Source of the DNA: Verrucomicrobiota bacterium
GTDB lineage: Bacteria; Verrucomicrobiota; Verrucomicrobiia; Limisphaerales; UBA8199
Assembly: GCA_012517205.1 (NCBI GenBank)
Contig: JAAYVL010000040.1
Coordinates: 1-45,579 of the forward strand
Reading direction: 5' to 3'
Length of the DNA stretch: 45,579 nucleotides
Position numbers and translations under genes: made by a program. How positions within the stretch are numbered: position 1 is the first letter of the stretch; each line of letters begins with the position of its first letter. Below the pieces are notes generated by a model. The model was given only the letters and a program-made list of their open reading frames with translations. It did not search any database and was not told the DNA's origin. Of this stretch, positions 1-18,700 are shown in pieces.

Positions 1-216
1 GCGCTTTGAGAGGGTATAAGGAGGGGGATTTCCGGGGAAACGCCCTTTGGCGGAGGGAGGGGGTATGGGGCTGCGGCTGGGCGGGCGGGTGGGGGGCGAG
101 GCTCTTTTTCCCGGTTCTACGAGCCAATGGGGGGTGCCGGCCTGTTGGTCTCCGTTGACAACTGTTGCCGGGCGAACCAGTCTTGAGCGGTGAGCATTGA
201 CGGAACAGGGCCTCGC

Positions 217-2360: not shown

Positions 2361-2879
2361 TTACGCCAGCGACCGAAGGGCCCGGCCCACCCGCTCCACG
2401 ATGGCGGGCAGGGCGGCCTGCAAAGCGGGGGACAAAGCGGTGCCGAGCGTGAAGGGGTCGGCGACTTCGATGGCAAAGATGCGGACCTGTTGCGGCATGG
2501 GCAGCCCCAGGTGCCGGCCCAGGGCAAGGGTTTCGCCAATGCCGACGAAGTGGGGCGTGCGCCCGGTGAGCTGCCGCAAGGCGGCGGCGTCCAGTTCATG
2601 CACGACGCCGGGCGCCACGCGGCCGGTCTGGATGGAGTCCACGAGCACGACCGTCTCATAGCCGCTGATAAAGTCCAGGAGCGCCAATCCCATCTCCATG
2701 GTCTCACGGACATCAATCGCCGGGCATCCGGCCAGCGTGGCCCGAAGCTGGCGAACCACGTAAAGGCCGACGCCGTCGTCGGTGAGGATGTCGTTCCCCA
2801 GCCCCAGCAGCAGGGTGCGCCGGGCCGGAGCGGATGACGGCTCCGGCGCGGCGGTCATTTCGGGCGCAAGCGGCAGCAT
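2361..2879 (-). CDS. [NiFe]-hydrogenase maturation endopeptidase (HyaD/HycI family, M52)
   Basis: A 172-residue protein of the peptidase family M52, which removes the C-terminal tail of the hydrogenase large subunit after nickel insertion. The sequence shows the family N-terminus GLGNDILTDDGVG, a central VVLVDSIQTG strand with the second acidic metal ligand, and a VHELDA histidine. The start at 2879 is supported by GGAGGTG 5-6 bases upstream; longer upstream reading frame has no support. It is the last gene of the minus-strand series and lies 67 bases after the large subunit gene, whose product carries the DPCxxCxxH cleavage motif. Other maturation genes (hypABCDEF) are not in this window. 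Confidence 0.9.
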   Translation of the reverse strand: MLPLAPEMTAAPEPSSAPARRTLLLGLGNDILTDDGVGLYVVRQLRATLAGCPAIDVRETMEMGLALLDFISGYETVVLVDSIQTGRVAPGVVHELDAAALRQLTGRTPHFVGIGETLALGRHLGLPMPQQVRIFAIEVADPFTLGTALSPALQAALPAIVERVGRALRSLA

Positions 2880-2946
2880 GACGCACCTCCGCAATCCGGA
2901 ATCCAGGATTCGCCGGCGGGCGGAACCTTGAACTCCGAAGAACGGG

Positions 2947-4476
2947 TTAGTCCTGCACGAGTTGTTCCACCAGGTTCCGCTGCCGGTCGTAAATGTTGAC
3001 GCGCAGCGGCAGATGGCCGGGGAGCGAGTGAGTGGCGCACCCGAGGCAGGGGTCATAGGCGCGGAAGGCCATTTCGACCTTGTTAAGGAGGCCCTCGGTG
3101 ACTTTGCCGTTTTTGATGAGGCCCTTGGCGGCGCGATCCACGCTCATGGCGATGCGCGCGGCGTTATTCTGGGTGGCCACAATCAGGTTGGCCATCGTGA
3201 TGCAGCCGCGTTCGTCAGTCCGGTAGTGGTGGAACAGCGTGCCGCGCGGGGCTTCCACCACGCCGAAGCCTTCTTTGGGGATGCTCGTGGGAACGCGCCG
3301 CACGTCCGGGTTGATGATGTCCGGATCGTTCACCAGTTCCTGCATGCGCTCGGCGGCATAGATCATCTCAATGGCGCGCGCGAGGTGGTTGGCCAGGGTG
3401 AAATGGACCGGCTTGCCGCCGAGGGTTTTGTAAAAGTCCTCGTAGGCGGCCTGGGCCTTGGGAGTGGCCATGCCATCGGAGGCATTCAAGCGCGCCAGCG
3501 GGGCCACGGCATAGATGCCGGTGTCGGGGCCTTCCACGAAATCCTTCCAGCCGCGCTGTTTGAGGTAGGTGAACTTCATGTAGCTCCAGGGCTCGACGTG
3601 TTCGGCGACATAATCGAGGTACTGCCGGGTCGGGAATTTGCAGATTTCCTTGCCGTTGCAGTCCACCACGCGGAGCTTGCCGTCATAGAAGTTGACGCGA
3701 TTCTGTTCGTCCACCATGCCCATATAGCAGGTCTTGTGGGTATAGGCGTCGCTGGTGACCATCTTCAAGTATTCGGGGTTCTCCAGGACGATTTGCTTGA
3801 GCACGGCGAGCGTCCATTCGGCAAACTCGACCGCGTCCCGGGCCAATTCCTTGAACCGGGGCAGGTCGGCCGGGTCCAGCGCCTTGCTGACGCCGCCGGG
3901 CAACCCCAGCACCGGGTGCACCACCTTGCCGCCGAAATAGGCGATGAGCTCGCGCACGCGGCGGCGGGAGGCAATGACTTTCTTGCCCGCCTCCAGCCCC
4001 ACCTTGCCGATCACGCCGACGATATTGCGTTCGGCCGGGGGGGCTTCCGGGCCGACGATGAAATCCGGCCCGCCCAGCACAAAGACGTGCAGGGCATGGT
4101 CTTCGAGAATGAAGGCGTTATAGACCAGCTCGCGAATCTTCCGGCCGGGCACGGTCGGCTCGACCTGGTAAAGATCGTCGAGGCATTTGGTCGAAGCCAT
4201 GTGGTGCGAGGTGGGGCAGACGCCGCAGATGCGGCTGGTAATTTGCGGCATGTCCTCGGCGGGGCGCCCGAGGCTGAAAACCTCGAAGCCGCGCAATTCG
4301 GGGACCTGCATATAGGCCCGCTCGACATCGCCTTTGTCGTTTAGAAAGATATCGATCTTGCCGTGGCCTTCGAGGCGCGTGATGGGCTCGATGGTGAAGC
4401 GGCGGCGGCCCATTTGATAGGCCGCGTTGGCGCGGGCGGCGCCCTGGTTGAATGTCTCTTTAACGGTTTGGTCCAT
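2947..4476 (-). CDS. mvhA: F420-non-reducing-type [NiFe]-hydrogenase large subunit (group 3c-like, MvhA)
   Basis: A 509-residue NiFe catalytic subunit. The N-terminal metal-binding motif is RICGVCPTSH and the C-terminal one is DPCLGCATH, giving the four cysteines that hold the Ni-Fe site. About 26 residues follow the final histidine, and these should be removed by the endopeptidase encoded next. The TRLEGHGKI start and overall length fit cytoplasmic group 3 enzymes; the MvhG and MvhD genes directly upstream point to group 3c, where the hydrogenase feeds electrons to HdrA. No signal peptide is seen, as expected for a cytoplasmic enzyme. AGAGAT precedes the ATG. Subgroup assignment rests mainly on neighbours and would need a phylogeny. 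Confidence 0.93.
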   Translation of the reverse strand: MDQTVKETFNQGAARANAAYQMGRRRFTIEPITRLEGHGKIDIFLNDKGDVERAYMQVPELRGFEVFSLGRPAEDMPQITSRICGVCPTSHHMASTKCLDDLYQVEPTVPGRKIRELVYNAFILEDHALHVFVLGGPDFIVGPEAPPAERNIVGVIGKVGLEAGKKVIASRRRVRELIAYFGGKVVHPVLGLPGGVSKALDPADLPRFKELARDAVEFAEWTLAVLKQIVLENPEYLKMVTSDAYTHKTCYMGMVDEQNRVNFYDGKLRVVDCNGKEICKFPTRQYLDYVAEHVEPWSYMKFTYLKQRGWKDFVEGPDTGIYAVAPLARLNASDGMATPKAQAAYEDFYKTLGGKPVHFTLANHLARAIEMIYAAERMQELVNDPDIINPDVRRVPTSIPKEGFGVVEAPRGTLFHHYRTDERGCITMANLIVATQNNAARIAMSVDRAAKGLIKNGKVTEGLLNKVEMAFRAYDPCLGCATHSLPGHLPLRVNIYDRQRNLVEQLVQD

Positions 4477-4487
4477 ATGGATCTCTT

Positions 4488-5462
4488 TTACTTTGAGGGG
4501 AGGGTGGCTTTGCGGCGCAACAGGCTCTTGGCCAGGCCGTACCGATAGAAGGTGCCCACCGGATCGGGGATGCCTTCAATTACTTTTTCGATTTCGCCCT
4601 CTTCTTTGGGGGCGATGTTGGAGCAGATCGAGGACAGGATTTTAAGGCCTTGATCGCGTACGCGGGAGGTGGGGCCGAAGCAGCCGGTGCATGGCATGCC
4701 GCCGACGGTGCAGGCCGCGTTGCAGCCGCTGCGGGTGGCGGGGCCCAGGCAAACGACGCCCTGGGCGAGGAAGCACAGGTTCGGGTCCATCAACGCCTGG
4801 TGGGGCCGTTTGAACTCGGTGAACGCGATATTGGCGGGCTTGGTGGCCTTGCGGGGGCACTCGTCGCACAACGCGATATCGGGCGCGATCACGCTTCCTT
4901 TGGGCGGCAGCCGGTTTTCCAGCAGGGCGGTCAGCGCCGTGCGGGTGACCCGCGGGGTGGGCGGACAGCCCGGCACGTAATAATCCACCTCGACCACCTG
5001 GTCGAGCGAGCGGACAACATGGTGCATGGCCGGCAGAGTCGGGGTGCGGCCCTGGTCGTCGGTGGTCACCTGAGGGCGGGTCTTTTGGGCGTTTGCCATG
5101 GTCGGGCCGCCCTCGTAATTGAACTGGAAGATTTGCTCGAGCGGAAACTGGTTGGCCAGCCCGGGAATGCCGCCGAGCTGCGCGCAGGCGCCATAGGCGA
5201 TCAGGTATTGGCTTTTGCGGCGCAACAGGTGGGCCATCTCCTCCTGTTCGGTGGAGCGGATGGCGCCGTTGAGCAGCGTGGCCACGATGGACTTGTCGGG
5301 CATGGCCTCGATGTCCTTGTATTTGAAATCCATCGCCACGGGCCAGAGCACGATGTCCACTTTTTCAACCACCCCGAGGATGTCCTCGGCGAGGTCCACG
5401 ACGGTTTCTTCGCAGCCTCCGCACGAGGCGCACCAGTAAAAGGCAATTTTGGGCTTAGGCAT
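4488..5462 (-). CDS. mvhG: [NiFe]-hydrogenase small subunit (MvhG-like)
   Basis: A 324-residue electron-transfer subunit. The start MPKPKIAFYWCASCGGCEE gives the CxxC of the proximal [4Fe-4S] cluster, completed by cysteines in GACAQLGG and PGCPPTP. The C-terminal third carries further cysteines (CDECPRK, CFLAQGVVCLGP, GCNAAC, CTGCFGP) for medial and distal clusters. No twin-arginine signal is present, so the enzyme is cytoplasmic. The ATG at 5462 overlaps the end of the MvhD gene by 8 bases, which implies translational coupling; reading frame upstream of this Met is out of family. The large subunit gene follows after 11 bases. In the Mvh scheme it passes electrons from the NiFe site to MvhD. 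Confidence 0.92.
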   Translation of the reverse strand: MPKPKIAFYWCASCGGCEETVVDLAEDILGVVEKVDIVLWPVAMDFKYKDIEAMPDKSIVATLLNGAIRSTEQEEMAHLLRRKSQYLIAYGACAQLGGIPGLANQFPLEQIFQFNYEGGPTMANAQKTRPQVTTDDQGRTPTLPAMHHVVRSLDQVVEVDYYVPGCPPTPRVTRTALTALLENRLPPKGSVIAPDIALCDECPRKATKPANIAFTEFKRPHQALMDPNLCFLAQGVVCLGPATRSGCNAACTVGGMPCTGCFGPTSRVRDQGLKILSSICSNIAPKEEGEIEKVIEGIPDPVGTFYRYGLAKSLLRRKATLPSK

Positions 5463-6021
5463 GAGCAGTCTCCAGAGTTTGAGGTTTGCCACCATGTTCC
5501 GGGCAGGCGCTGCCGGTGGCGGCTTCCCGGGCGGCGACGTGTTCGGCGAAGTGTTCCATTTCCCGGTCCCACTCGTCGAACTTTTGCGGGAGGCCCAGCG
5601 GGCCAAGCTGGGTGAGGGTTTCGGTCATCTCGTTGATGACGCGTTTGACTTTTTCGCCCTCGGCGGCGGAAATCCATTCCAGCCGCAGGCGTTCGGGCTC
5701 GATTCCCATGTCGGCGATCATGCGTTTGAGCATCTGGTAGCGGCGGAGGCATTTGTAGTTGCCTTCGACGTAGTGGCAATCATTGGGATGGCAGCCGCCG
5801 ATGAGCACGCCATCGGCGCCTTTGGCCAGCGCCTCAACGATGAACTGCGGATCCACCCGGCCCGAGCACATCAGCCGAATCACCCGCGCGTTGGCCGCAT
5901 GTTTCATGCGGGACACGCCGGCCAGATCGGCCGCGGTGTAGGTGCACCAGTTGCAAAAGAAGGCCACAATGCGTGGCGTCCAGGTTTCTCCAGAAGCGGA
6001 GGGTTTGGTTTGGTTCGTCAT
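5455..6021 (-). CDS. mvhD: MvhD [2Fe-2S] subunit linking hydrogenase to HdrA
   Basis: A 188-residue MvhD/DUF-type protein. The family core is visible: FFCNWCTY, LMCSGRV, GCHPNDCHY and YKCLRR, which together supply the cysteines for one [2Fe-2S] cluster. In methanogens MvhD is the physical bridge between the MvhAG hydrogenase and HdrA. The C-terminal 50 residues are charged and longer than the shortest homologues. ATG 6021 has AAAGGA about 9 bases upstream. It lies 25 bases after hdrA and overlaps mvhG by 8 bases, so the three genes hdrA-mvhD-mvhG are in the order expected for one complex. Confidence 0.93.
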   Translation of the reverse strand: MTNQTKPSASGETWTPRIVAFFCNWCTYTAADLAGVSRMKHAANARVIRLMCSGRVDPQFIVEALAKGADGVLIGGCHPNDCHYVEGNYKCLRRYQMLKRMIADMGIEPERLRLEWISAAEGEKVKRVINEMTETLTQLGPLGLPQKFDEWDREMEHFAEHVAAREAATGSACPEHGGKPQTLETAHA

Positions 6022-6046
6022 TTTTTAATCCTTTCTCGGCGGGCGG

Positions 6047-8089
6047 TTAAACCGGAACCGGCGCCAGCACGCCGTCAATTTCACTGAAGATTTCTTCGTC
6101 TTCGAACAGGTTTTGCACAATTGAGCCGCTCGGGCACGCCGCGACGCAGGTGCCGCAGCCCTTGCAGAGCGCCTCGTTGATGATGGCTTTCTTGCGCTCC
6201 TCGTCAAAGGTGATGGCCGTGTAGGGGCACAGCGGGATGCAGGATTTGCAGCCGCTGCACTCGTCGGCCAGGATGTAGGCGGTGTTGGGCTCCTGCTCGA
6301 CGTGGCCTTTGTCAATCAGCGCGAACGCCTCGGAGGCCGCGGCGCCGGCCTGGGCCACGGAATCGGGGATGTCTTTGGGCCCCTGGCAGCAACCGGCGAG
6401 GAAGATGCCATCGGTGAAGGTGTTGACGGGGGCCAGTTTCGGGTGCCGCTCCAAAAACCAGCCTTCGCTGCTGCAGCTCAGGTTAAACTGGCGGCGCAGG
6501 TTTTCGGAATCCGGCTGCGGCTCCAGCCCCACCCCCAGCACGACCATGTCCACCGGGATCTTGAGAATCTTATTGGTCAGCGTGTCCTCCGCCTGGACGA
6601 CCAGGCGGCCGGTGGCGCCGTTGTTCGGGTCGGGGTAAACATCCGCCACCTTGCCCCGGATCAGGTGCATCCCTTCCTCGGCAATCCGGTTGTAGAACTC
6701 CTCCATGCTCTTGCCGGGCGTCCGCATATCAATGTAGAAGTTATACACCTCGGCGTTGGTGTGCTCCTTGATGAGGTGCGCCAGTTTGAGGGAGTAAAGG
6801 CAGCAAACCCGCGAGCACCAGCGGTTGGTGTTTTCGTCACGCGAGCCGACGCAGTGGACGATCGCCACTTTTTTGGGCCGCTGGCCATTCCGCATGATGA
6901 GTTCGCCCTCGGTGGGGCCGGAGGCGTTGATGATCCGTTCGATTTCCAGGGCGTTATAGACGTTGGGATAGACGCCGTAGCCATAGAAGGGGGTGCGTTT
7001 GGCGTCAAATATCTGGAAGCCCGTAGCCATGATGATGGTGCCCACCGTGATGTTTTTGAATTCCTCGGTCTGCTTGAAGTCAATCGCTTTGCGATCGCCG
7101 CAGGCCTGGACGCAGGTCTTTTTGCATTTGTCCGAGACGGTATGGGTGCCGTCGGGATTCTTGCCGCGCTTGAAGTTGAGGCAGACCTCGGGGTCAATCA
7201 TCACCACGGGCGGAATGGCCTGCGCAAACGGGAGGAATACCGGCTTGCGCTTGCCCAGGCCGAGATTGAACTTGTCGGGGAACTTCGGCTCTTTGAAGAC
7301 GCAGGCATCCACGCATTCCTGGCAGCCGGTGCAGAGGTCTTCGAGAATGTAGCGCGGCTTGCGCCGGACGGTAATGTTGAAATTGCCGACATAGCCGTCC
7401 ACCTTGGCCACTTCCGAGTAGGTCCAGAGATGGATGTTGGGGTGCGAGCCTACGGCGGCCATCTTGGGCGACAGCACGCACATGGCGCAGTCCAGGGTGG
7501 GAAAGGTCTTGTCGAACATGGCCATGTGGCCGCCAATGGTCGCCTCTTTGTCCACCAGATAGACCATCTTGCCCGCATTGGCCAGGGTAAGCGCGGCGTG
7601 GATGCCGGCGATGCCGCCGCCAACGATCAGGACATTGGGGTTGACCGGGACCTTTTTCACTTCGAGCGGTTTATGGTGCGGAACGCGCTGGATGGCGGCG
7701 CGCGCCAGGGCCATAGCCTTGCGGGTGGCCTCGGTCCGATCGGTATGCACCCAGGAATTATGCTCCCGGGTGTTGACCATCTGGACATAGAACGGGTTGA
7801 GCCCGGCGGCTTCCGTGGCTTTGCGGAAGGTGAGTTCGTGCAACAGCGGCGAGCAGGCCTCGACCACAATGCGGTTTAGCCGGTGCTCGCGGATGTCCTG
7901 CTGGATCAACTCCTGCCCCGGATCGGAGCACATATATTTGTAATTCCGCGAAATAGCTACGTTGGGCAAGGTGGCGACGTATTTGGCGACCGCCTCGACG
8001 TCCACCATGCCGGCGATATTCGTGCCGCAATGGCAGATATAATAGCCGATGCGAATGGGTTCGTTCTTCTTCGGTACAATGGGTTTCAT
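6047..8089 (-). CDS. hdrA: Heterodisulfide reductase subunit A (HdrA), bifurcating flavoprotein
   Basis: A 680-residue full-length HdrA. In order: an N-terminal Fe-S domain (CHCG at residues 19-22 and a MCSDPG cysteine), a thioredoxin-reductase-like FAD domain (VGGGIAGIHAA near 157 and a second nucleotide-binding part), an inserted ferredoxin domain (CTGCQECVDAC near 252), and two C-terminal [4Fe-4S] motifs (CSGCKSCIPLCP and CKGCGTCVAACP). The conserved LDCAMCVLSPKM stretch is present. The second cluster of the inserted ferredoxin has unusual cysteine spacing (about residues 301-335; see findings). HdrA is the flavin-based bifurcation site that splits electrons between ferredoxin and a high-potential acceptor. 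It sits 15 bases after the HdrD-like gene. The start has only a weak ribosome binding site. Confidence 0.95.
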   Translation of the reverse strand: MKPIVPKKNEPIRIGYYICHCGTNIAGMVDVEAVAKYVATLPNVAISRNYKYMCSDPGQELIQQDIREHRLNRIVVEACSPLLHELTFRKATEAAGLNPFYVQMVNTREHNSWVHTDRTEATRKAMALARAAIQRVPHHKPLEVKKVPVNPNVLIVGGGIAGIHAALTLANAGKMVYLVDKEATIGGHMAMFDKTFPTLDCAMCVLSPKMAAVGSHPNIHLWTYSEVAKVDGYVGNFNITVRRKPRYILEDLCTGCQECVDACVFKEPKFPDKFNLGLGKRKPVFLPFAQAIPPVVMIDPEVCLNFKRGKNPDGTHTVSDKCKKTCVQACGDRKAIDFKQTEEFKNITVGTIIMATGFQIFDAKRTPFYGYGVYPNVYNALEIERIINASGPTEGELIMRNGQRPKKVAIVHCVGSRDENTNRWCSRVCCLYSLKLAHLIKEHTNAEVYNFYIDMRTPGKSMEEFYNRIAEEGMHLIRGKVADVYPDPNNGATGRLVVQAEDTLTNKILKIPVDMVVLGVGLEPQPDSENLRRQFNLSCSSEGWFLERHPKLAPVNTFTDGIFLAGCCQGPKDIPDSVAQAGAAASEAFALIDKGHVEQEPNTAYILADECSGCKSCIPLCPYTAITFDEERKKAIINEALCKGCGTCVAACPSGSIVQNLFEDEEIFSEIDGVLAPVPV

Positions 8090-8104
8090 AAAATGCTAAG
8101 CTTT

Positions 8105-9307
8105 CTATTCCAGGGACTCGGCCAGGAGTTCGACAACGTCCCGGACCACCATAGGTTTATTGTGCGGAACCACTTTGAGGGCGTCCTCAAACCGCGAAAC
8201 TTCGTAGGGACAGGCCACCGCGAGCACATCGGCCCCCGTGGCAACGGCTTCCTTGACCCGCCGCTCCGACAGCCGATCCATGCCCTGCTGCTTGTAGTAG
8301 GTATCCAGCCACATGCCGCCGCCGCCCCCGCCGCAGCAGACGGCATTGACGCGGTGGTGAACCATCTCGACCAGTTTTATGCCGGGAATCGCCCGCAAAA
8401 GCGCCCGCGGCTCGTCGTAGATATTGTCGGCCCGGCCCAGGCAGCATGGGTCGTGATAAGTGACGGTGAGATTGAGGGGTTTCTTGAGCCGGGGCTTGAG
8501 CTGGTCCAGGTGGCGCGCAAAGAATTGCGTGGTATGCTCGGCCGGCTGGGTCATGCCATACATCGGGTATCGGAAGCGGAACGCATTGTAGGCATGCGCA
8601 TCGCCGGTCACCAGGCGCCGGAATTTGTATTTATTGAACAGCTTGACGTTGTATTCGGCCAGGGATTCGAACAGCCCCGACTCCCAGGTCATCTGGCCGC
8701 AGTCACCCGCGCACTTCTCCTCGTTCCCCAGGATGGCGAAATCCACCCCGAGAGCCTGGAATAGTTTGGCGGTGGCCCGGCTGTTATCCTGCCCGCGGGC
8801 GTAGAAGGAGGTATAACACTCCACAAACCAGAGCACGTCCACCTCGCGCTTGATTTCGGCCAGCACGGGAATCTTTGTTCCGGCGGTGGCAGTCCAGGCG
8901 GCGCGTTTGCGCGGGGATTCGCCCATCGGGTTGCCGTAGCGATGTATGTTCTCCAGTGATTTCTGGAATTCCGCCGGCATTTCGGAGCGGGTGATAAGCA
9001 CCTGTTCCTTGACCAGCGGGAGCAGGATGTCCGTCAACCGGATGCCGCGCGGACATTTGGCCATGCAGGCATAGCAGGCGACGCAGCACAGCAGGCTGTC
9101 GGATTTGATCACTTCGTCCAGAAAGCCTTCCCGCAGCATGCCAATGACGCGCCGGGGCGAAAACTCCATGTGCTCGCCGTAGGGGCAGGTGCCGCCGCAG
9201 GTGCCGCATTGGATGCAGCTCATCATGCGCCGGCCCGCCGGCGTCTGGAGCAGCGTCTCCAGCGTGGTGGTTTTATCAACAACTGCCGGTTCTAACACAG
9301 CGACCAT
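8105..9307 (-). CDS. HdrD-like (HdrC-HdrB fused) Fe-S/CCG-domain oxidoreductase
   Basis: About 400 residues. The N-terminal part has two [4Fe-4S] motifs (CIQCGTCGGTCP near residue 31 and CCVACYACMAKCP near 74), as in HdrC. The C-terminal part has two cysteine-rich CCG-type repeats: a divergent one (EKCAGDCG) and a canonical one (HDPCCLGR followed by CCGGGGGG), as in HdrB, where such motifs bind the noncubane [4Fe-4S] clusters that handle heterodisulfide or another two-electron acceptor. ATG 9307 has GAAAGGAT upstream; the longer reading frame overlaps the repeat-derived tail of the previous gene and is rejected. It may form a second Hdr arm beside the separate HdrC/HdrB of this operon or pair with the EMO protein. 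The substrate is not known. Confidence 0.85.
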   Translation of the reverse strand: MVAVLEPAVVDKTTTLETLLQTPAGRRMMSCIQCGTCGGTCPYGEHMEFSPRRVIGMLREGFLDEVIKSDSLLCCVACYACMAKCPRGIRLTDILLPLVKEQVLITRSEMPAEFQKSLENIHRYGNPMGESPRKRAAWTATAGTKIPVLAEIKREVDVLWFVECYTSFYARGQDNSRATAKLFQALGVDFAILGNEEKCAGDCGQMTWESGLFESLAEYNVKLFNKYKFRRLVTGDAHAYNAFRFRYPMYGMTQPAEHTTQFFARHLDQLKPRLKKPLNLTVTYHDPCCLGRADNIYDEPRALLRAIPGIKLVEMVHHRVNAVCCGGGGGGMWLDTYYKQQGMDRLSERRVKEAVATGADVLAVACPYEVSRFEDALKVVPHNKPMVVRDVVELLAESLE

Positions 9308-9323
9308 TGCGATCCTTTCATGT

Positions 9324-11375: not shown

Positions 11376-11544
11376 AGGGCATTACTCGGTTATGCGCGGG
11401 ACGGCGCCCCGCGAATTCATCCCATAAAACCGGAACACCGAAGCAGCCCAAAACTCGAAACCCAAACCCTTTCGGTCAAGGCAGTTTGGCCGCGGGTTTT
11501 GCGTTATTCCCGAAAGATGGGTGGCTGACGGTGCTTCGCTCATT

Positions 11545-12516
11545 TTATCCCTTGCGCGCTTTAACTTTGTCCGTCAGGACCGGCAGCAATTCCAGCACGT
11601 CGCCGACCACGCCAATGTGCGCGCCGTCGAAAATCGGCGCTTTGGGGTCGGTATTGACGGCGATGATGCATAGCGAGTTTTGCATGCCTTCCCAGTGTTC
11701 CGGCGCACCGCTGATGCCGAGCGCGAAATAAACACGCGGCTTGACGGTCATGCCGGACTTGCCGACCTGCCGGCTCAACGGCTGCCAGCCCTGGTCAATC
11801 ACCGGGCGGGAAGCGCAAACGGCCCCGCCCAGCACTTGCGCGAGGTCCTCGGCCAGTTGCACGTTGTCCTGGCTCTGAATCCCCCGTCCCACCCCCACGA
11901 GGATATTCTGTTTCGTAATGTCCACATCGCCGGTTTCCGGCTCGATGTATTGCTTGAACGTCACCTTGGGCGCCTCCACGGGCAGGTCCAGTTTCTCGAC
12001 CGGCGGCGCCTGGTCGCTCTTGCCGTCGTCGGCGGGAAACGCCCCCGGGTAGAGGCAGGCGATGCCGCGCCCGTCCGGCAGCTTCACATCCGACAGGATC
12101 TTGCCGCCGAACAACTGGCTGGTGAGCTGAATGGCGGAGCCGTCGGCCCGGGCCGCGCGACAGAAGTTTACCAGCGGCAAACCGGTCTGCGCTGCGAGCG
12201 TCGAGCCAATCCCCAGCGACACGTTGGTGCATCCGACCAAAACCAGGCCCGCCTGGCTTTGGTCAATCACCGTCTTGAGCACCGCCGTAACGGTGGCAGC
12301 GGGTGCCAGATTAAGTTGTGGATTATCCGCCACGAATACTTTGTCCGCCTTTCCCAGTTTCGCGGCAAGCGGCGCGGCTTCGCTGCCCAGCAAGACCGCA
12401 TACAACGGGGCACCCACAGCGCTGGCCAACGCGCGCCCAACCCCCAGCATTTCAAAGGTGATGTCCGAGATTTCGCCCCGGAGTTGCTCGGCCAGAACGA
12501 GTATTGGATTTGCCAT
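11545..12516 (-). CDS. etfA: Electron transfer flavoprotein alpha subunit
   Basis: A 323-residue EtfA. The N-terminal ETF domain is followed by the C-terminal FAD-binding domain with LVGVGRGIQSQDN, ASRPVIDQGW, QVGKSGMTVKPRVYFALGISG, a conserved His in the APEHWEGM stretch, and NTDPKAPIF. These match the standard alpha-subunit FAD site. A strong AAGGAG precedes ATG 12516, and etfB ends 12 bases upstream. Together with EtfB it would carry electrons to or from the membrane Fe-S oxidoreductase encoded next. Whether the pair is bifurcating cannot be decided by eye. Confidence 0.93.
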   Translation of the reverse strand: MANPILVLAEQLRGEISDITFEMLGVGRALASAVGAPLYAVLLGSEAAPLAAKLGKADKVFVADNPQLNLAPAATVTAVLKTVIDQSQAGLVLVGCTNVSLGIGSTLAAQTGLPLVNFCRAARADGSAIQLTSQLFGGKILSDVKLPDGRGIACLYPGAFPADDGKSDQAPPVEKLDLPVEAPKVTFKQYIEPETGDVDITKQNILVGVGRGIQSQDNVQLAEDLAQVLGGAVCASRPVIDQGWQPLSRQVGKSGMTVKPRVYFALGISGAPEHWEGMQNSLCIIAVNTDPKAPIFDGAHIGVVGDVLELLPVLTDKVKARKG

Positions 12517-12528
12517 AACTGAGTCTCC

Positions 12529-13302
12529 TTAGATCACACTGTTTTTTGCCAGCACTTCCACCAATTGGTCCGCAACCTCTTCGGTGGATCCTTCAATCAT
12601 TTGCGCGCGGCCCGCAGCCTCCGGCTTGTACATTCGTTCAATATCAAGCTGGATCGGCTGCTCGGGCGATGCCAAAGCCGCCTCCTCGATTTGGGCGGAC
12701 TTCATCACGGCCCGCACTTTGGCCACCGGCACGTAGCGCGGCGGCTTTTCGGCGGATTGAATTCCCAGCACGGCCGGCAGCGTCACCTCGAACTCGCCGC
12801 GCAAGCCGCCGGCAAACTCTTTCAAGACCGTCACCTTCCCGGCATCACCCGTCACGCCGCAGACCACCCCGATATAGGGCAGTTTCAGCGCCGCCGCGAG
12901 CAACGGGGCCAGTTCGCCCTCCAGATCGTCGATCGCCTGCGAGCCGGGCAACAGCAGCGAATCCGAGGTCAGCGCCCCGGCGGCCGCAAAGAACTCCGTG
13001 AGGACTTTGGCGGACGCCACCGTGCCCAGGCTGGCCTGGTTAAGCGGAATTTTCACCGCACGGTCAGCCCCCTTGGCCAGCGCCGTAAACAATACATCGT
13101 CCACTTCCGGCGCGTCAAAAGCGACGACCGTCACCTTGCCGCCCATTTTTTCTTTCAGGATCAGCGCCTGCTCGAGGGCGTGATCGTCCGGTTCACTGAG
13201 TTTGAACCGGAGGAATTCTGAATCCAGCGACTTGCCGTCGGCGGCGACTTCGAGCTCTTCCACCGTATCCGGCACCATTTTGAGTAGGACGTAGAGGTTC
13301 AT
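12529..13302 (-). CDS. etfB: Electron transfer flavoprotein beta subunit
   Basis: A 257-residue EtfB. The N-terminus MNLYVLLKMVPDT and the SEPDDHALEQAL segment are typical. The nucleotide-binding loop reads GSQAIDDLEGELAPLLA, where standard EtfB has GxQAIDDDTGQVGPLLA, so the Thr-Gly-Gln part is changed. This loop binds AMP in ordinary Etf and a second FAD in bifurcating Etf. The alteration may affect the cofactor. The gene lies 14 bases after hdrB and 12 before etfA, inside the Hdr operon, which is an uncommon placement and suggests that Etf exchanges electrons with the Hdr proteins. Confidence 0.92.
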   Translation of the reverse strand: MNLYVLLKMVPDTVEELEVAADGKSLDSEFLRFKLSEPDDHALEQALILKEKMGGKVTVVAFDAPEVDDVLFTALAKGADRAVKIPLNQASLGTVASAKVLTEFFAAAGALTSDSLLLPGSQAIDDLEGELAPLLAAALKLPYIGVVCGVTGDAGKVTVLKEFAGGLRGEFEVTLPAVLGIQSAEKPPRYVPVAKVRAVMKSAQIEEAALASPEQPIQLDIERMYKPEAAGRAQMIEGSTEEVADQLVEVLAKNSVI

Positions 13303-13316
13303 AAAGGGTTAAAGGT

Positions 13317-14216
13317 TCATTTCGCGGCGAGAGCCGGCGCGGCTTCCTGCGCCTCGCGGATGGCCGGCATGACCGCCACCAGTTCCGAGCCGATGCCCAA
13401 CCGCTTGGGTGGGATGCCCAGCGCCAGGCCCATTAACTGGGTGAAATACATCACCGGCATCTTGTAATCCGTGCCGAACTCCTTGTTGACCTGCTTTTGG
13501 TAGCACTCGAGGTTCACCTGGCAGAGCGGGCAGGCGGTCACGATCACCGCCGCGCGCGCCTGAATGGCGGATTCGAGCAGGTTCCGCACCATGCTCAGCG
13601 CCGCCTCGCGGTTCGTAATGATCAGCGCGCCGCCGCAGCACGTCAGCCGCAGCGGGTACGGCACCGGCTCGGCCCCGCACGCCGCCACCAAATCCTCGAA
13701 GAACGTCGGCTGCTCGACGTTTTCCTTGGCCTGCTTGCGCGGGCGCAGAATCTGGCAGCCGTAGTAGGGTGCCACTCGCAGCCCCTTCAGGGGGTTTTTG
13801 ACGCTGGCCTTGACTTGCGCCAGCCCCACGTCATGGACAAACACCTCGATCAGGTGATGCACCTTCGACTCGCCCGAGAAGCTGAGGTTGTCCTCGGCCA
13901 GCGCCGCGTTGATATGCTCGGCCAGGTCCGCGTCGTGCCGCAGATGCTCGCGCGTGAAATACATATTCTTGTAGCACCCGCTGCACGGGGCCACCATCGG
14001 CAGCTTTTGCTGCTCCGCCATCGCCAGGTTCCGCGCGCAAAGCGTGTAGGCGAGCAGTTCGTCCACGTGGAAATAAGCCGTCGCGCCGCAGCAATTCCAG
14101 TCTTCCAGCTCCCGCAGTTCGACGCCCAGCGCCCGCGACGTTTCCAACGCTGAAATATGATAGCTGTGCGCCATCTTCTCCAGCGAGCAACCGGGGAAAT
14201 ATGCGTAACTCTTCAT
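13317..14216 (-). CDS. hdrB: Heterodisulfide reductase subunit B (HdrB)
   Basis: A 299-residue HdrB with two CCG domains. The first shows FPGCS, WNCCGA and APCSGCY; the second shows YYGCQ, TCCGG and ACPLCQ. In HdrB these ten cysteines bind two noncubane [4Fe-4S] clusters that reduce the CoM-S-S-CoB heterodisulfide in methanogens; bacterial homologues act on unknown acceptors. The ATG overlaps the hdrC stop in an ATGA junction (14213-14216), so the two are translationally coupled. About 25 C-terminal residues are Ala/Glu-rich beyond the fold. Confidence 0.94.
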   Translation of the reverse strand: MKSYAYFPGCSLEKMAHSYHISALETSRALGVELRELEDWNCCGATAYFHVDELLAYTLCARNLAMAEQQKLPMVAPCSGCYKNMYFTREHLRHDADLAEHINAALAEDNLSFSGESKVHHLIEVFVHDVGLAQVKASVKNPLKGLRVAPYYGCQILRPRKQAKENVEQPTFFEDLVAACGAEPVPYPLRLTCCGGALIITNREAALSMVRNLLESAIQARAAVIVTACPLCQVNLECYQKQVNKEFGTDYKMPVMYFTQLMGLALGIPPKRLGIGSELVAVMPAIREAQEAAPALAAK

Positions 14217-14833
14217 TCTTTGTCTCCCAGGGGGATGATATGCTTGATCATGCGCTTAAAGTTATCCAGCCGCTTAATGCGCGCCGGCAGCAGCGGCAAC
14301 CGACCTTTGAGCATCAGCGCCGTGCCCATGGTGGCCTCCTGGATCATTTCCGGCAGGCCGTAGGTGAACATATACGTCGGGGCCAGCACCGGCTCATAAG
14401 ACCGCCCCGTGCGCAGGATCATCTTCACAAAGGTCTCCGAGAATACCGGCCCAATCAGCCCCTCCTGATGTTCGGTTTTCCACACGGTGTAGCGCTTTAA
14501 TCCGTACATCAGCTCCGCGATATCTATATTCCGCGGGCACCGCACGGTGCACTGGTAGCAGGAGGCGCAATACCAGAACGTATTGGCCTTGAGCACCTGT
14601 TCCTTGAAGCCGGCCCGGATCAGGGCGATGATGCGCCGCGGCGAATTGTCCATGAACCCGCCCGAGGCCACCGGGCAGGTAGCCGAGCAGGTCCCGCATT
14701 GGATGCAGGTATTGATCGGATTGCCCTTCGAGGCGTACAGCAAGTGGTTGATTTCCTCGACAAAGGACATCGGGTTTTCCGGCGGCGCCGCGCTGGGGGC
14801 GGCGGGTTCCGCTACCGCAGTTGCTGTGCTCAT
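14213..14833 (-). CDS. hdrC: Heterodisulfide reductase subunit C (HdrC)
   Basis: A 206-residue HdrC. Two [4Fe-4S] motifs, CIQCGTCSATCP (near residue 43) and CASCYQCTVRCP (near 88), form the ferredoxin fold that connects HdrA to HdrB. The first 20 residues are an Ala/Pro-rich tail not needed for the fold. Both ends overlap neighbours by 4 bases (ATGA with the receiver gene upstream and hdrB downstream). The HdrC-HdrB pair is separated from hdrA by etfBA, the EMO-like gene and the HdrD-like gene. Confidence 0.94.
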   Translation of the reverse strand: MSTATAVAEPAAPSAAPPENPMSFVEEINHLLYASKGNPINTCIQCGTCSATCPVASGGFMDNSPRRIIALIRAGFKEQVLKANTFWYCASCYQCTVRCPRNIDIAELMYGLKRYTVWKTEHQEGLIGPVFSETFVKMILRTGRSYEPVLAPTYMFTYGLPEMIQEATMGTALMLKGRLPLLPARIKRLDNFKRMIKHIIPLGDKE

Positions 14834-15252
14834 TTGCTTTTGGCCTTTCGCGTTTCGGCAGTCTTGAGCAGGCTCGCCACCTTATCCAGCAGAAGTTTCG
14901 GGTCCACCGGCTTTTCGACCAGCTCATCCACCTCCACAAAGCTGGGATGCACCGCCTGGCCGGGGAACAGAAACGCCATCTGCTCGCGGATCCCGGTGAT
15001 GATCAGCACCGGCAACTTGCGCAATTTCGGGTCTTTCCCCAGCTTGCGGGCGATCATAATCCCCTCCGCGCCGCGCCCCATCATGACGTCCAGCAGCAGC
15101 AGATCATAGTTCTTGGTTTTCAAGGCTTGCAGCCCGTCCTTCGGGTTATGGACCACATCCACCGCGTACTTGGCTTTTACCAGAATGGACTTAATGCCCG
15201 CCACAAAATCCGGGTCATCATCAATAATCAGGAGTTGTTTAGCTTCGCTCAT
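14830..15252 (-). CDS. Single-domain response regulator (REC only)
   Basis: A 140-residue stand-alone receiver. LLIIDDDPDF gives the acidic pocket, LLLLDVMMG the phospho-accepting aspartate (about 54), ITG the conserved Thr position and VEKPVDP the lysine. No output domain follows, only a basic tail (TAETRKAKSK). Such proteins act as phosphorelay intermediates or by protein-protein contact. ATG 15252 has AAAGG upstream; it overlaps hdrC by 4 bases, so signalling and electron-transfer genes are translationally coupled. The segment between the Asp and Lys is longer than usual, with a hydrophobic FLFPGQAVHP insertion. Confidence 0.88.
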   Translation of the reverse strand: MSEAKQLLIIDDDPDFVAGIKSILVKAKYAVDVVHNPKDGLQALKTKNYDLLLLDVMMGRGAEGIMIARKLGKDPKLRKLPVLIITGIREQMAFLFPGQAVHPSFVEVDELVEKPVDPKLLLDKVASLLKTAETRKAKSK

Positions 15253-15262
15253 ATTTAAACCT

Positions 15263-16387
15263 TTATACTGGAGTTGGACTCGATTGGACCACGCCCTGCC
15301 CCAACGGCAGGTAAATCGTAAAAGTGCTGCCCTGCCCCGGCTCGCTTTCCACGGTGATGGTGCCCCCGTGGACCTCGGTAATCCGCCGGCTGATGGCCAG
15401 CCCCATCCCGCAGCCGGTCGCGCCTTCGGGTTGCGCCTGGCCCCGCGCAAAATCCTGGAAAAGCCGCGGCACATCCTCCTTCGCGATGCCCACGCCCGTG
15501 TCCGCGACCGCAATCAGCGCCTCGGCGTTCCGGGTTTCGACCCGCACGCGGATCTTGTGGTTCGGGAAGCTGTATTTGACCGCGTTCCCCAACAGGTTCG
15601 TCACCACCTCGGTCAGGCTGCCCGCGTCGCCAATGACGGACGGCATCCCTTCCGCGACCGAGGTTTCGATCTGCAGCCCTTTGCGCGTCGCGTGCGGCTG
15701 GGTGTATTCCACCGCCCGGGCCACGATGTCGGCCAGGGCCACCGGCTGGAAGGTCTCCTTCAGCTTGTTGATGTCCACCGAATAGACCCGCAACCACGAA
15801 TGAATCAGCTTCAGCAAGTCGTCCACCCGCGCCTGCAGGCGGGCAAACCGCTGCTGCTGCTCCTCCGCCAGCTTGTCTTCCAGTTCGGCGGCCAGCGCGT
15901 ACAAGTTCTGCTGGAGGGCGCCCAGCGGCGATTTGAGTTCATGGGAGACAATGGCGGCAAAGTTCTCCCGCAGCATTTCCTTCTCCCGCCGCAGGGCGGT
16001 GGTTTGCTGCACCAGCCGGCTGTGCTCCAGCCCGCGCCGGGCAATCAGGCGCAATTCATCGGGCGTGAACGGTTTGGGCAGAAAATCAAACGCCCCCTTC
16101 TTCATGGCCTCGACCGCCGAGCTCACAGTGGCGTAGCCCGTGATCACAATCACCACCATCAGCGGCAGCTTGGCCCGGATGCGCTCCAGCACTTCCAGCC
16201 CGGAAAGCCCGGGCATCTTGAGATCCAGAAAAACCAGGTCCGGCTGCAGCTCCTCCAGCCGCTTCAAACCTTCCGCGCCATTGTTGGCCAGCGCGACGCG
16301 GCAATCGCGGCTGTCCAGAATCTGCGTGCAGGCATCGAGCACCACTTCCTCGTCGTCAATCACCAGGATGGTATGCTTAAGCGGCAC
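15263..16387 (-). CDS. Receiver-histidine kinase hybrid protein
   Basis: A 374-residue soluble protein. Residues 1-120 are a receiver (ILVIDDEE, VFLDLKMPG, TGYATV, KPF). A short coiled linker leads to a HisKA domain with phospho-acceptor His in VSHELKSPLG (about 148), then a HATPase domain with N box (NLLGNAVKYS), DTGVGI, and GCGMGLAISRR. No membrane segment is visible. Start chosen at GTG 16387, with GGAG 9 bases upstream and an 11-base overlap with the preceding kinase gene. REC-HK proteins of this type usually take phosphate from an upstream kinase; the membrane kinase encoded just before is the obvious partner, and the REC-only protein encoded next a likely recipient. Confidence 0.87.
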   Translation of the reverse strand: MPLKHTILVIDDEEVVLDACTQILDSRDCRVALANNGAEGLKRLEELQPDLVFLDLKMPGLSGLEVLERIRAKLPLMVVIVITGYATVSSAVEAMKKGAFDFLPKPFTPDELRLIARRGLEHSRLVQQTTALRREKEMLRENFAAIVSHELKSPLGALQQNLYALAAELEDKLAEEQQQRFARLQARVDDLLKLIHSWLRVYSVDINKLKETFQPVALADIVARAVEYTQPHATRKGLQIETSVAEGMPSVIGDAGSLTEVVTNLLGNAVKYSFPNHKIRVRVETRNAEALIAVADTGVGIAKEDVPRLFQDFARGQAQPEGATGCGMGLAISRRITEVHGGTITVESEPGQGSTFTIYLPLGQGVVQSSPTPV

Positions 16388-18395
16388 GTGGCAGGTTCTC
16401 CTCTTCGTTGCTGACCGGCAAGCAAATTGTGAACGTGGCGCCGCGCCCCTCCTCGCTCTCCACGGTGATGGTGCCCTTGTGCTCCTTGACAATTCCGTAG
16501 CTGATGGCCAGCCCGAGGCCCGTCCCATGCCCCACCTCTTTGGTCGAGAAGAACGGGCTGAAGATCCGGTCCAGGTCCGCCTCCTTGATGCCGTGGCCCG
16601 TGTCGGCGAACTCCACCTCGACGGCCTGTTCCGCCGGCACGTGCCGGGTGGTGAGCGTCAGCCGCCCCCCGCCATGCATCGCTTCCGCCGCGTTCAGAAT
16701 CATATTCATAAACACCTGCTGAATTTGCGACGGGTCCATGAAGACCGGCGGCAGATTCGCGCTCAGATGTTGCACAATCCTGATGTTGTGGAACAGCACT
16801 TGATTGTCAACCAACGAAATACATTCCTCCAGCACCCGGTTCACGTTCGACTGCCGTTTCTCGGGTTTCCGCTGGCGCGAAAAGTCCAGCAGCCCGCGGA
16901 TAATATCCCGGCACCGGTCGGCCTGCTTGACGATCTTCTCCAGCGAGGCCCGCGTTCCGTCGTCCGCCGACGCCCGTTCCAGCAGCAAATGCGAATAGGT
17001 CACGATGCCGGTCAGCGGATTATTGATCTCATGCGCCACCCCCGCCGCCAATTGCCCGATATGGGCCAGCCGCTCCGACTGCATGATCCGCCGCGTCGTG
17101 AATTCCCGCACCTTTTCGTCCCGTTTTTTCAGCGCCGCCGCCATGAAGTTGAACGCGTCCGCCAGCTCCAGCAGCTCGTCATGCGAACGGATCTCAACCC
17201 GCGTGTCCAGGTTCCCGTGCGCCACCTGCTCCGCCGCCACCGCCAATTTCTTGATCGAAACCGAAATCTTGCCGGAAATGAAGGACGCCAGGCCCAGCGC
17301 GATCAGCGCGCCCACCACCGTCACGGCCAGAAACACCATCACCGCCCGATGCCGCAAATCCACATATTTCTGCTCCAGCAACCCGACATACAGCATCCCG
17401 ATGATTCTGCCCGTCAGATCCCGAATCGGCTCATACGCCGTGATGTACCAATGATTCACCACAAAAGCCCGCCCAATCCACGGCCGCCCGTGCCGCACCA
17501 CCTGCTCATAGACATCCTCCGCCACCCGGGTGCCCAGGGCGCGGGTGCCGTCCTCATTTTTCACGTTGGTGGAGATCCGCAGGTCATCCTGGAATATCGT
17601 CGCCGTCCCCATGTCTTTGCCCTTGTATTGCAGGTTCTGAAATACGGTCTGTTTGATGCGGTCCACAATCTCACAGTTGCGGTTCAGCAACACCCCCCCA
17701 TATACAATCCCCAGCACCCGGTGCGACGAATCCAGCACCGGCGCGGCCGCCTTCAACATCATGCCGGACGATTCCTCCGTCGCCGCGCGCGCCCGCGCCT
17801 TCGGGGTCTCGATAAACTGGAAATGCGCCTGCTCCGCCAGCGCCGGCGACTCCCGCCGCAGGTTCTCGGCCGAGACAAGGCAGGCCGCCGCCACCGGTTC
17901 CGCCCGCTCCATCACCGCGCGCACCAGTTCGTCCTGCGACTGGTCATCGCCCACCACGCTGCCGGAGGTCGCGCGCAGCACCACCCGCCCGTTCCGATCC
18001 GTCACCCCCAGCACGTCCAGCTTTTCGCGCTCCCGCGTCCGCACCAGCGCCTCCCACGCCGGCCGCGTGTCGCCCGACAGCAACGAGTTCAGCAGCAGCA
18101 CCCGGTCCGCCGTAAAGCGCACCACGTCGTTCACCGCCGCCAGTTTGTTCAGGTAGATCTCCCGCGCCGCATTCAAATCCGTATGCACCTTGGCCTGCGC
18201 CTCCGCGACGACCCGGTTCCCAATCACCCGCGCCCCCACCAGCCCAAAAACGCCGCTCACCAGCAAAATGATCAGCAGAAAACTCAGCACCAGCTTCGTG
18301 GCCATCCGCACCCGGAATAAACAGGATTTCCCGGACGCCGGCCCCCCAGACCGACCCCTGGTCAACCATCCTGCTATGTCCGATATTTTGCTCAT
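16377..18395 (-). CDS. Membrane sensor histidine kinase with double-Cache-like sensor and HAMP
   Basis: A 672-residue kinase. TM1 (about residues 32-56), a large extracytoplasmic Cache-type sensor (about 57-335, with LDVLGVTDRNGRVVLRA and the ISTNV...GRPWIGRAFVVNHWYITAYEPI part typical of chemoreceptor-like sensors), TM2 (about 340-365), HAMP, a HisKA domain with His in GVAHEINNPLTG (about 455) and a HATPase (NMILNAAEA, DTGHGI, GTGLGLAIS). It heads the minus-strand gene series that contains the Hdr/Etf/hydrogenase genes, overlapping the next gene by 11 bases. It probably senses a small extracellular or periplasmic molecule and starts the phosphorelay of the following two proteins. The start ATG 18395 has no clear ribosome binding site. 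Confidence 0.88.
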   Translation of the reverse strand: MSKISDIAGWLTRGRSGGPASGKSCLFRVRMATKLVLSFLLIILLVSGVFGLVGARVIGNRVVAEAQAKVHTDLNAAREIYLNKLAAVNDVVRFTADRVLLLNSLLSGDTRPAWEALVRTREREKLDVLGVTDRNGRVVLRATSGSVVGDDQSQDELVRAVMERAEPVAAACLVSAENLRRESPALAEQAHFQFIETPKARARAATEESSGMMLKAAAPVLDSSHRVLGIVYGGVLLNRNCEIVDRIKQTVFQNLQYKGKDMGTATIFQDDLRISTNVKNEDGTRALGTRVAEDVYEQVVRHGRPWIGRAFVVNHWYITAYEPIRDLTGRIIGMLYVGLLEQKYVDLRHRAVMVFLAVTVVGALIALGLASFISGKISVSIKKLAVAAEQVAHGNLDTRVEIRSHDELLELADAFNFMAAALKKRDEKVREFTTRRIMQSERLAHIGQLAAGVAHEINNPLTGIVTYSHLLLERASADDGTRASLEKIVKQADRCRDIIRGLLDFSRQRKPEKRQSNVNRVLEECISLVDNQVLFHNIRIVQHLSANLPPVFMDPSQIQQVFMNMILNAAEAMHGGGRLTLTTRHVPAEQAVEVEFADTGHGIKEADLDRIFSPFFSTKEVGHGTGLGLAISYGIVKEHKGTITVESEEGRGATFTICLPVSNEEENLPRAA

Positions 18396-18700
18396 ACCAG
18401 CAATGCACTGACGCTATTGGGTCTCTATGCCACGGCACTTAACGCTAATCCCGTCTGAAGTTCTCAACATGCCTTGCTAAACCCTTTCCATTTTTTGTGC
18501 GAAGTTCCAATCCCGCCCCGCGGCCCCCTCATTACAGCGCTTTCCGCCCCTGCCGGCAGGGCCGCTCCCGCCGCCGAAAACCCCTCGCCGGAGCGAGAAA
18601 ACGCGCGAGACGACGGGTTTTATCCGGCGCAGGAACCGGGAGCTGGCCGAAAAGCGCGGAGGAACGCCCTCTCTCCCCGGCGCGGATTTTCAAGCGCGGG
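18396..18700. other. Non-coding gap upstream of the histidine kinase/Hdr operon
   Basis: No convincing gene. This gap separates the end of rsmB from the start of the sensor kinase, both on the minus strand, so it should hold the operon promoter, but I see no confident -35/-10 or -24/-12 pair. It contains a perfect 14-base palindrome (18548-18561, centred on TGCCGGCA) and is very GC-rich from 18500 to 18700. Confidence 0.6.

Follow-up and report, generated by a model that had tools for sequence, protein, structure and literature searches.

A hydrogenase-Hdr-Etf-EMO gene cluster from Verrucomicrobiota, a candidate H2-driven bifurcating system with a predicted outlet to menaquinone

Gene content and organization of the cluster

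The DNA considered here, referred to throughout as the window, is a stretch of 45,579 nucleotides from a Verrucomicrobiota bacterium of the order Limisphaerales (assembly GCA_012517205.1, contig JAAYVL010000040.1). Between positions 2361 and 18395 it carries 14 frames, all on the minus strand, which in order of transcription encode a Cache-HAMP sensor histidine kinase, a receiver-histidine kinase hybrid, a stand-alone receiver, HdrC, HdrB, EtfB, EtfA, an EMO-like membrane protein, an HdrD-like protein (below simply HdrD), HdrA, MvhD, MvhG, MvhA and a hydrogenase maturation protease (Table 1). Frame and family scans bear out the same-strand set of families named in an earlier note on this DNA, and also the four gene overlaps to which it had drawn attention, which measure 11 bases between the two kinase genes (GTG at 16387), 4 bases at both the receiver/hdrC and hdrC/hdrB junctions and 8 bases at mvhD/mvhG (ATG at 5462). 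Apart from the etfA-EMO junction taken up below, the remaining intergenic gaps are 10-25 bases long, with about 67 bases ahead of the protease gene, whose ATG at 2879 is one choice among several possible starts. For hdrD the ATG at 9307, giving a protein of 400 residues, was preferred to the TTG of the long frame. An Rfam scan of the window returned 0 matches, and both promoter-like sites (2 against 4.0 expected) and terminator-like sites (22 against 18.9 expected) were at chance level. We regard the cluster as more than a chance assemblage because other genomes repeat the identical set in the identical order.

Table 1. Genes of the cluster, in order of transcription, with the matches that identify them
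Feature	Coordinates	Strand	Domains and matches
Cache-HAMP sensor histidine kinase	16377..18395	-	sCache_3_3, HAMP, HisKA, HATPase_c
Receiver-histidine kinase hybrid	15263..16387	-	Response_reg, HisKA, HATPase_c; GTG start
Stand-alone receiver	14830..15252	-	Response_reg only
HdrC	14213..14833	-	Two Fer4 sites; TIGR03290 72 bits, under cut-off 160
HdrB, two complete C-CC-CxxC motifs	13317..14216	-	CCG x2; TIGR03288 219.6 bits, below cut-off
EtfB, without bifurcating motif	12529..13302	-	ETF; closest solved chain 1o94_C
EtfA	11545..12516	-	ETF and ETF_alpha; best solved chains 7qh2_A, 6fah_A
EMO-like membrane Fe-S protein (predicted Etf:menaquinone oxidoreductase)	9324..11375	-	CCG, Fer4, five hydrophobic segments
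HdrD-like HdrC/EtfD chimera, sHdrB3 relative	8105..9307	-	EtfD 9ojn_A and HdrC 8rvv_C matches
HdrA, full length	6047..8089	-	Methanogen HdrA 8rvu_a, 701 bits
MvhD	5455..6021	-	FlpD 181 bits
MvhG, hydrogenase small subunit	4488..5462	-	Oxidored_q6; VhuG model 190 bits, below cut-off
MvhA, NiFe large subunit	2947..4476	-	NiFeSe_Hases; RICGVCPTSH and AYDPCLGCATH
Hydrogenase maturation protease	2361..2879	-	HycI 27.1 bits (cut-off 23)

The hydrogenase-HdrA core and HdrCB

Both motifs of MvhA agree with the ICGxCxxxH and AYDPCxxCATH pattern of the group 3c bifurcase MvhA, and motifs of this type were used for selecting bifurcating MvhA according to an excerpt of one study (PMC6085437). HdrA aligns over residues 10-675 with the methanogen protein, the cysteine motifs of the latter included, and a full-length HdrA with flavin adenine dinucleotide (FAD) and iron-sulfur (Fe-S) sites next to MvhD (FlpD) is likewise a group 3c feature. 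The two motifs of HdrB are of the noncubane type and are found complete in 14/14 HdrBs of the related loci designated types III and C1 below; its scores with TIGR03288 and the SdhE model NF042965 (219.2 bits, also below cut-off) are nearly equal. The window has the MvhA motifs, MvhD, the full-length HdrA and the two-CCG HdrB in common with the methanogen MvhADG-HdrABC complex (H2:coenzyme B-coenzyme M heterodisulfide, ferredoxin reductase), but adds a predicted quinone outlet, HdrD-EtfAB-EMO, and a phosphorelay. To our knowledge coenzyme M or coenzyme B is not expected as acceptor in bacteria.

HdrD as a putative bridge between HdrA and EtfAB

The earlier note had listed an HdrD-like fusion, and such a protein is indeed present, but a catalytic HdrB/HdrC-type HdrD was rejected, as the back half scores 157 bits with Mycobacterium smegmatis EtfD 9ojn_A (162 bits overall) against 24-27 bits with HdrB. 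HdrC 8rvv_C gives 61 bits, and with the HdrC model TIGR03290 the protein reaches 80 bits, compared with 72 for the true HdrC of the window and 36 for EMO, all below cut-off. A profile built from 22 true HdrCs yielded means of 106, 103 and 94 bits for the Mvh-linked HdrDs of types III, II and C1, and a mean of 57 bits for the sHdr-linked HdrDs of type C2; the EMO maxima of 101-102 bits with this profile stem from frames that run on into hdrD (L039, L046, L099). In a comparison of structure models the predicted fold lies nearest EtfD, then LutA, then HdrB, the model having a mean predicted local distance difference test (pLDDT) value of 76, with 31-63 over most of residues 1-60. Some first-CCG cysteines are retained in the HdrDs of types II and III, and the CxxC is not. 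Judging from these similarities, HdrD is a chimera of an HdrC-like front and an EtfD-like back, and is related to sHdrB3 of the type II sulfur-oxidising sHdr systems.

EtfAB and the EMO-like protein

A bifurcating EtfAB as the core of the system was also rejected. EtfB is devoid of the GDTAQVGP motif of 5ol2_B and 6fah_B, which we take to be EtfBs of bifurcating complexes; the window has DDLEGELAP, and the motif occurs in no aligned row shown. The best solved relative of EtfB is the W3A1 ETF (1o94_C), which is presumably non-bifurcating. The absence of the motif from EtfB makes HdrA the probable place of bifurcation.

The EMO-like protein displays the features of EtfD/EMO in its membrane part with five hydrophobic segments, its two Fer4 sites and its CCG domain bearing a D2 site, and the cysteines of D1 (the linear cluster), which are the first-CCG cysteines, are absent. 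The same loss, with the D2 histidine kept, is seen in the EMO rows shown for types II, III, C1 and C2. His78 of the membrane part is conserved in 46/46 aligned rows and His231 in 48/48, and both may serve as heme ligands. With the Etf:quinone oxidoreductases EtfD/EMO, FadF and DgcB the protein has in common the membrane part, two Fer4 sites and a second CCG with histidine; it differs from EtfD/EMO, and resembles FadF and DgcB, in being without the first-CCG cysteines, and its Etf partner is of another subfamily. An excerpt of PMC13083937 describes the histidine that replaces a bridging cysteine in the second CCG cluster of EtfD, as well as FadF and DgcB without first-CCG cysteines. As EtfD in the same excerpt illustrates, EMO-type proteins elsewhere pass electrons from dehydrogenases to quinone, and EtfBA-EMO might be an independent module of this sort, which would supply menaquinone with electrons from fatty-acid or other dehydrogenases and have only a transcript in common with an ordinary HdrABC-Mvh complex. 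The long gap between etfA and the EMO gene would suit such a module, which we nonetheless consider improbable: the ordinary EMO-Etf loci of the same order belong to a separate subfamily (mean EMO identity to type III 31%), retain the first-CCG cysteines in 4/4 cases and lie without Hdr or Mvh genes nearby in 4/4 stretches; family scans found no acyl-CoA dehydrogenase family in the cluster; and type II loci hold EtfBA-EMO-HdrD beside HdrA where HdrBC is absent.

Related loci in Verrucomicrobiota and Chloroflexota

Scanning genome contigs with EMO recovered 14 related loci, ten titled Verrucomicrobia, Verrucomicrobiia, Opitutia or Opitutaceae, one "bacterium" and three Chloroflexi or Anaerolineales. 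Arrangements were read by tblastn of the 14 proteins against these loci and, in later rounds, another 17, 40 and 4 stretches. Type III, with the merged set in the order of the window, is found in 8 Verrucomicrobiota genomes; it is contiguous as far as the contig reaches in 7 (with L091 and L092 stopping close to the mvh or hdrA end) and is split by contig ends between hdrB and etfB in one (L133, L093). Type II, found in 14 genomes, consists of etfB-etfA-EMO-hdrD-hdrA, often followed by mvhDGA, with the contig ending before hdrA in L043 and L046. Upstream of etfB, 9/14 type II loci show at least 4.7 kb without hdrCB or a phosphorelay, and L043 shows 3.1 kb of the same kind; L064 and L066 have only weak kinase matches there (66-107 bits), and three other loci are too short. 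In the type II locus L099 (genome G558) the Cache kinase, hybrid, receiver and hdrC genes are placed after mvhG, with an HdrB-like match of 34% upstream and no mvhA match in the stretch. Type I is hdrC-hdrB-hdrA at a separate locus, seen 11 times; mvhDGA follows in 6, is not seen after L073 (2.9 kb visible) and would lie beyond the contig end in 4. Seven Chloroflexota genomes have type C1, with the order hdrD-etfB-etfA-EMO-Cache kinase-hybrid-receiver-hdrC-hdrB-hdrA-mvhDG(A), one locus of which (L052) begins inside EMO at a contig end. The neighbourhood check proposed in the earlier note therefore recovers the merged set in both phyla, in another order in Chloroflexota.

In 16 further Chloroflexota loci (C2), 15 of them with an HdrA-core match, the module stands beside sHdr-like genes. 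The one scanned in detail, L105, encodes HdrC-like and HdrB-like proteins, a 356-residue HdrA core, an HdrD-like protein, EtfBA, EMO, two GcvH-like proteins and a lipoate ligase, and its predicted gene content fits a type II sHdr system. EMO has a role in such systems, and sHdrB3-like HdrD, EtfAB and EMO stand in one cluster both there and in the window, which on the other hand has a full-length HdrA with a hydrogenase where those systems have the short sHdrA, and has no lipoate-binding proteins in its cluster. An excerpt of PMC11582611 gives the type II arrangement as shdrC1B1AHB3 with etfAB and describes shdrB3 as a fusion of the C2 and B2 genes. Mean identities of 41-44% between types III and C2 for HdrD, EtfA, EtfB and EMO (HdrD of C1 and C2 being 42-51% identical) might be taken to make the cluster a variant of this sulfur-oxidation system, which we regard as very improbable, since the scan of the 14 genes and of five genes flanking them turned up no lipoate-binding protein or lipoate ligase family, whereas L105 has both, and since the cluster has a full-length HdrA together with a hydrogenase. 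Rejection of a plain type II sHdr system rested on the full-length HdrA and on the absence of sHdrH or LbpA in the scanned genes.

Comparisons of identity, trees and motifs were made over 57 loci; same-contig duplicates (L040, L044, L045, L047, L050) and ten remoter Chloroflexota loci (L118, L121-L129), in which the HdrD-like or EMO-like matches adjoin other forms of HdrA, were left out; tree rows below 60% of query length were dropped, and supports are FastTree local values. G463, with hdrD split over two contigs, was left untyped, and L097 and L098 were typed from little flank. Among the remoter loci, L121-L129 have HdrD- or EMO-like proteins beside a large or doubled HdrA and MvhD, with EtfAB in L126, L127 and L128. 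Beside the type II hdrA of L094 (G506), mvhG and mvhA (12460-14899) are broken by frame changes, owing to sequencing error or decay.

The view in the earlier note that the combined set is unusual for Verrucomicrobiota holds as far as rarity in the phylum goes, though the set also occurs in Chloroflexota. HdrD is matched at E<=1e-70 in 19/293 sampled genomes of the order, and 10/387 genomes of the phylum sample match it at 1e-40, the sole true HdrD (1/387) being that of the window's own genome; the other nine are 33-40% identical, eight of them in frames of 665-808 residues. The best 120 of 7924 matches of a Chloroflexota HdrD in a database search are all at least 80% identical, and the five among them with an organism name are Anaerolineales or Chloroflexi.

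Exchange of outlets on the HdrA core

A type I locus is present elsewhere in 11/14 type II genomes; in the single-contig genome G506 the type II and type I loci lie at 1.08 and 0.71 Mb. G062 and G067 gave no HdrB match at E<=0.001, and G558 was outside the HdrB search. Each of the 8/8 type III genomes has one HdrA of at least 60% identity (split over two contigs in G468), further HdrA matches in four of them reaching only 37-43%, and no second good HdrB was found in 6/8 type III genomes searched (a 26% match in G059). The partner of an HdrA core can hence be HdrBC, HdrD-EtfBA-EMO or the two together, and the merged-form genomes are without a separate hdrCB pair. From this pairing pattern EtfBA-EMO-HdrD appears to replace HdrBC as the outlet of HdrA. 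Both types, II and III, occur within the GTDB-type families f1 and f15, and the arrangement therefore changes over short distances. In the HdrB tree type III groups with C1 (14/14, support 0.943), apart from type I (8/8, 0.997); in the HdrD tree types II, III and C1 form one clade (28/28, 1.0) apart from the sHdr-linked HdrDs; and type I is a clade in the HdrA tree (7/7, 0.968).

A predicted route from H2 to ferredoxin and menaquinone

Weighing these observations, we lean slightly towards the cluster encoding a system of H2-driven flavin-based bifurcation at HdrA, with ferredoxin and menaquinone (through HdrD-EtfAB-EMO) as acceptors and HdrBC as a second outlet. MvhA would oxidise H2, and the electrons would travel over MvhG, then MvhD, to the HdrA flavin (FAD), from which one electron would go to ferredoxin and the other by way of the HdrC-like front and the noncubane site of HdrD to the EtfA flavin, EMO and menaquinone. 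HdrD would dock on HdrA by its HdrC-like part and meet EtfAB by its EtfD-like part; EtfAB would shuttle only, without bifurcating, EMO would reduce menaquinone, and HdrCB may give this HdrA another high-potential outlet. The link between H2, ferredoxin and the quinone pool by bifurcation or its reverse, as envisaged in the earlier note, is thus the best-supported reading in view of the module exchange and the HdrC/EtfD chimera, but its site is probably HdrA and not an EtfB without the bifurcating motif.

With potentials of -414 mV for H2, -450 to -500 mV for ferredoxin and -74 mV for menaquinone, the computed reaction energy is -59 to -49 kJ at 1 bar H2 and -1.5 to +8 kJ at 1e-5 bar; being near zero at the latter pressure, the reaction could be reversed at very low H2. 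This raises the possibility, to our minds an unlikely one, that the same complex runs mainly as a confurcating system, forming H2 from reduced ferredoxin and menaquinol in a fermenting cell. The window's genome, which is 93% complete, has a pyruvate:ferredoxin oxidoreductase fragment and two MqnA/MqnD-type matches, the latter speaking for the menaquinone route, and gave no match to COX1 or CdhC, the fragment and the two absences agreeing with such a cell. However, the bifurcating direction is downhill between 1 bar and 1e-4 bar H2, H2 could be released by a separate Hox-type hydrogenase set in this genome, and COX1, which suits H2 oxidation, is matched in 12 of the 16 genomes with such clusters examined (MqnA/MqnD-type in 14, CdhC in 1). 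Bifurcation from H2 would prevail over its reverse at ordinary H2 levels.

Several points weigh against H2-driven bifurcation to menaquinone. The gap between etfA and the EMO gene, 169 bases, is the sole one above 100. Most of the genomes are draft metagenome-assembled genomes, and 4/22 are without an MvhA match at E<=1e-20, one of these (G022) having both hdrA genes at contig ends; mvh follows hdrA in 6/9 long-enough type II loci, with other genes there in L066, L097 and L098. HdrA of types II and III is joined at a support of only 0.239, and the fold model of HdrD is poor across the HdrC-like half. The best solved relatives of EtfA (7qh2_A and 6fah_A) are LctC and CarE, which we assume to be subunits of bifurcating complexes, though the GDTAQVGP motif tested sits outside EtfA. 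EtfAB and EMO could serve other dehydrogenases, and with HdrCB encoded in the same cluster the main flow does not have to pass through the Etf branch.

Elsewhere in the same genome (L130, C53:34001-52000), positions 6890-11391 hold an 810-residue NuoE/NuoF/Fer4 fusion beside a 709-residue Pyr_redox/Fer2/Fer4_20 protein, presumably NfnB-like, a pair which resembles another bifurcating-type set.

The associated phosphorelay

The earlier note had assigned the cluster its own phosphorelay of two kinases and a receiver, and this stands: the hybrid adjoins HdrCB in types III and C1 and is seen in type II loci in L099 only. The hybrid is matched at E<=1e-70 in 5/301 Chloroflexota genomes, the same five that have HdrD above 430 bits and the C1 cluster, a coincidence of 5e-11 if the two were independent, a figure that ignores shared descent; up to six hybrid-kinase candidates were scored per genome. 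A family scan detected no DNA-binding family in the three signalling proteins, and the relay might adjust the use of the HdrCB branch. A search with the Cache kinase, in which matches were listed without genome context, returned among the best 120 of 6983 matches one Bacteroidota-titled homologue (P0209) with 64% identity, closer than those of Chloroflexota, a hint that a third phylum may possess the set.

Relationship to other described systems

In Thermotoga maritima EtfABCX, as far as the excerpt consulted describes it, the acceptors are alike, namely ferredoxin and menaquinone (predicted in the window), but electrons come from NADH and are bifurcated by the Etf complex, as against H2 and a predicted HdrA site in the window. 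BamE of the class II benzoyl-CoA reductases is HdrA-like. The window differs from these Bam/BamOP systems in having no aryl-CoA reductase family and a hydrogenase as the predicted donor, and a Bam-type system was rejected, the scan of the 14 cluster genes and five flanking ones having found no BamB-type tungsten enzyme family. The part of PMC5109826 drawn on here places bamD of D. multivorans in one cluster with an Etf. Desulfobacterium autotrophicum has hdrA4 followed by hdrD2, and hdrF3 with etfBA (PMC2702500, in excerpt), so that hdr and etf pieces lie there at different loci, and in the window in one cluster. The Hdr-Etf sulfur cluster of Thermomicrobium roseum, going by an excerpt, is among the nearest descriptions. 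The refuting case named in the earlier note, an existing description of this exact set, did not turn up: no HdrA-hydrogenase cluster with an Etf/EMO outlet was found in the open-licence literature, in the portions of it consulted, most subscription papers being outside it.

Flanking genes

Beside the end of the cluster, convergent or flanking, positions 190-2325 (+) encode a protein that combines a Cache-like sensor part and a Ser/Thr protein kinase domain. At the other end a 503-residue frame (18497-20008, +), to which a Pfam scan gave no match, runs divergently to the gene of the sensor kinase and is followed by a 624-residue protein (20012-21886, +) with GreA/GreB domains confined to residues 465-603, behind a long front to which no family was assigned. 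A polysaccharide locus with several glycosyltransferases, an O-antigen ligase-like protein and a GNAT acetyltransferase occupies 22706-45122.

Implications

We tentatively advance, with rather less than even confidence, the broader proposal that these loci encode the first H2:ferredoxin:menaquinone bifurcase, that HdrD-EtfAB-EMO is a transferable quinone outlet for unlike HdrA machines of the hydrogenase and sHdr types, and that in the window's lineage the HdrBC-linked phosphorelay selects between this outlet and HdrBC on one HdrA-hydrogenase core. The natural single-outlet and double-outlet loci make the question of the HdrA acceptor testable, and they would point to a swappable outlet module common to hydrogenase and sulfur-oxidation systems. 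If the proposed route is correct, the quinone pool would be a new outlet for Hdr-hydrogenase bifurcating enzymes, and a cytoplasmic bifurcation would be joined directly to it, ferredoxin being reduced from H2 at the cost of a drop to menaquinone. It would also name, for these bacteria, the high-potential acceptor of an HdrA complex where no heterodisulfide is known, and H2 users without the methanogen coenzymes could in this way run HdrA bifurcation.

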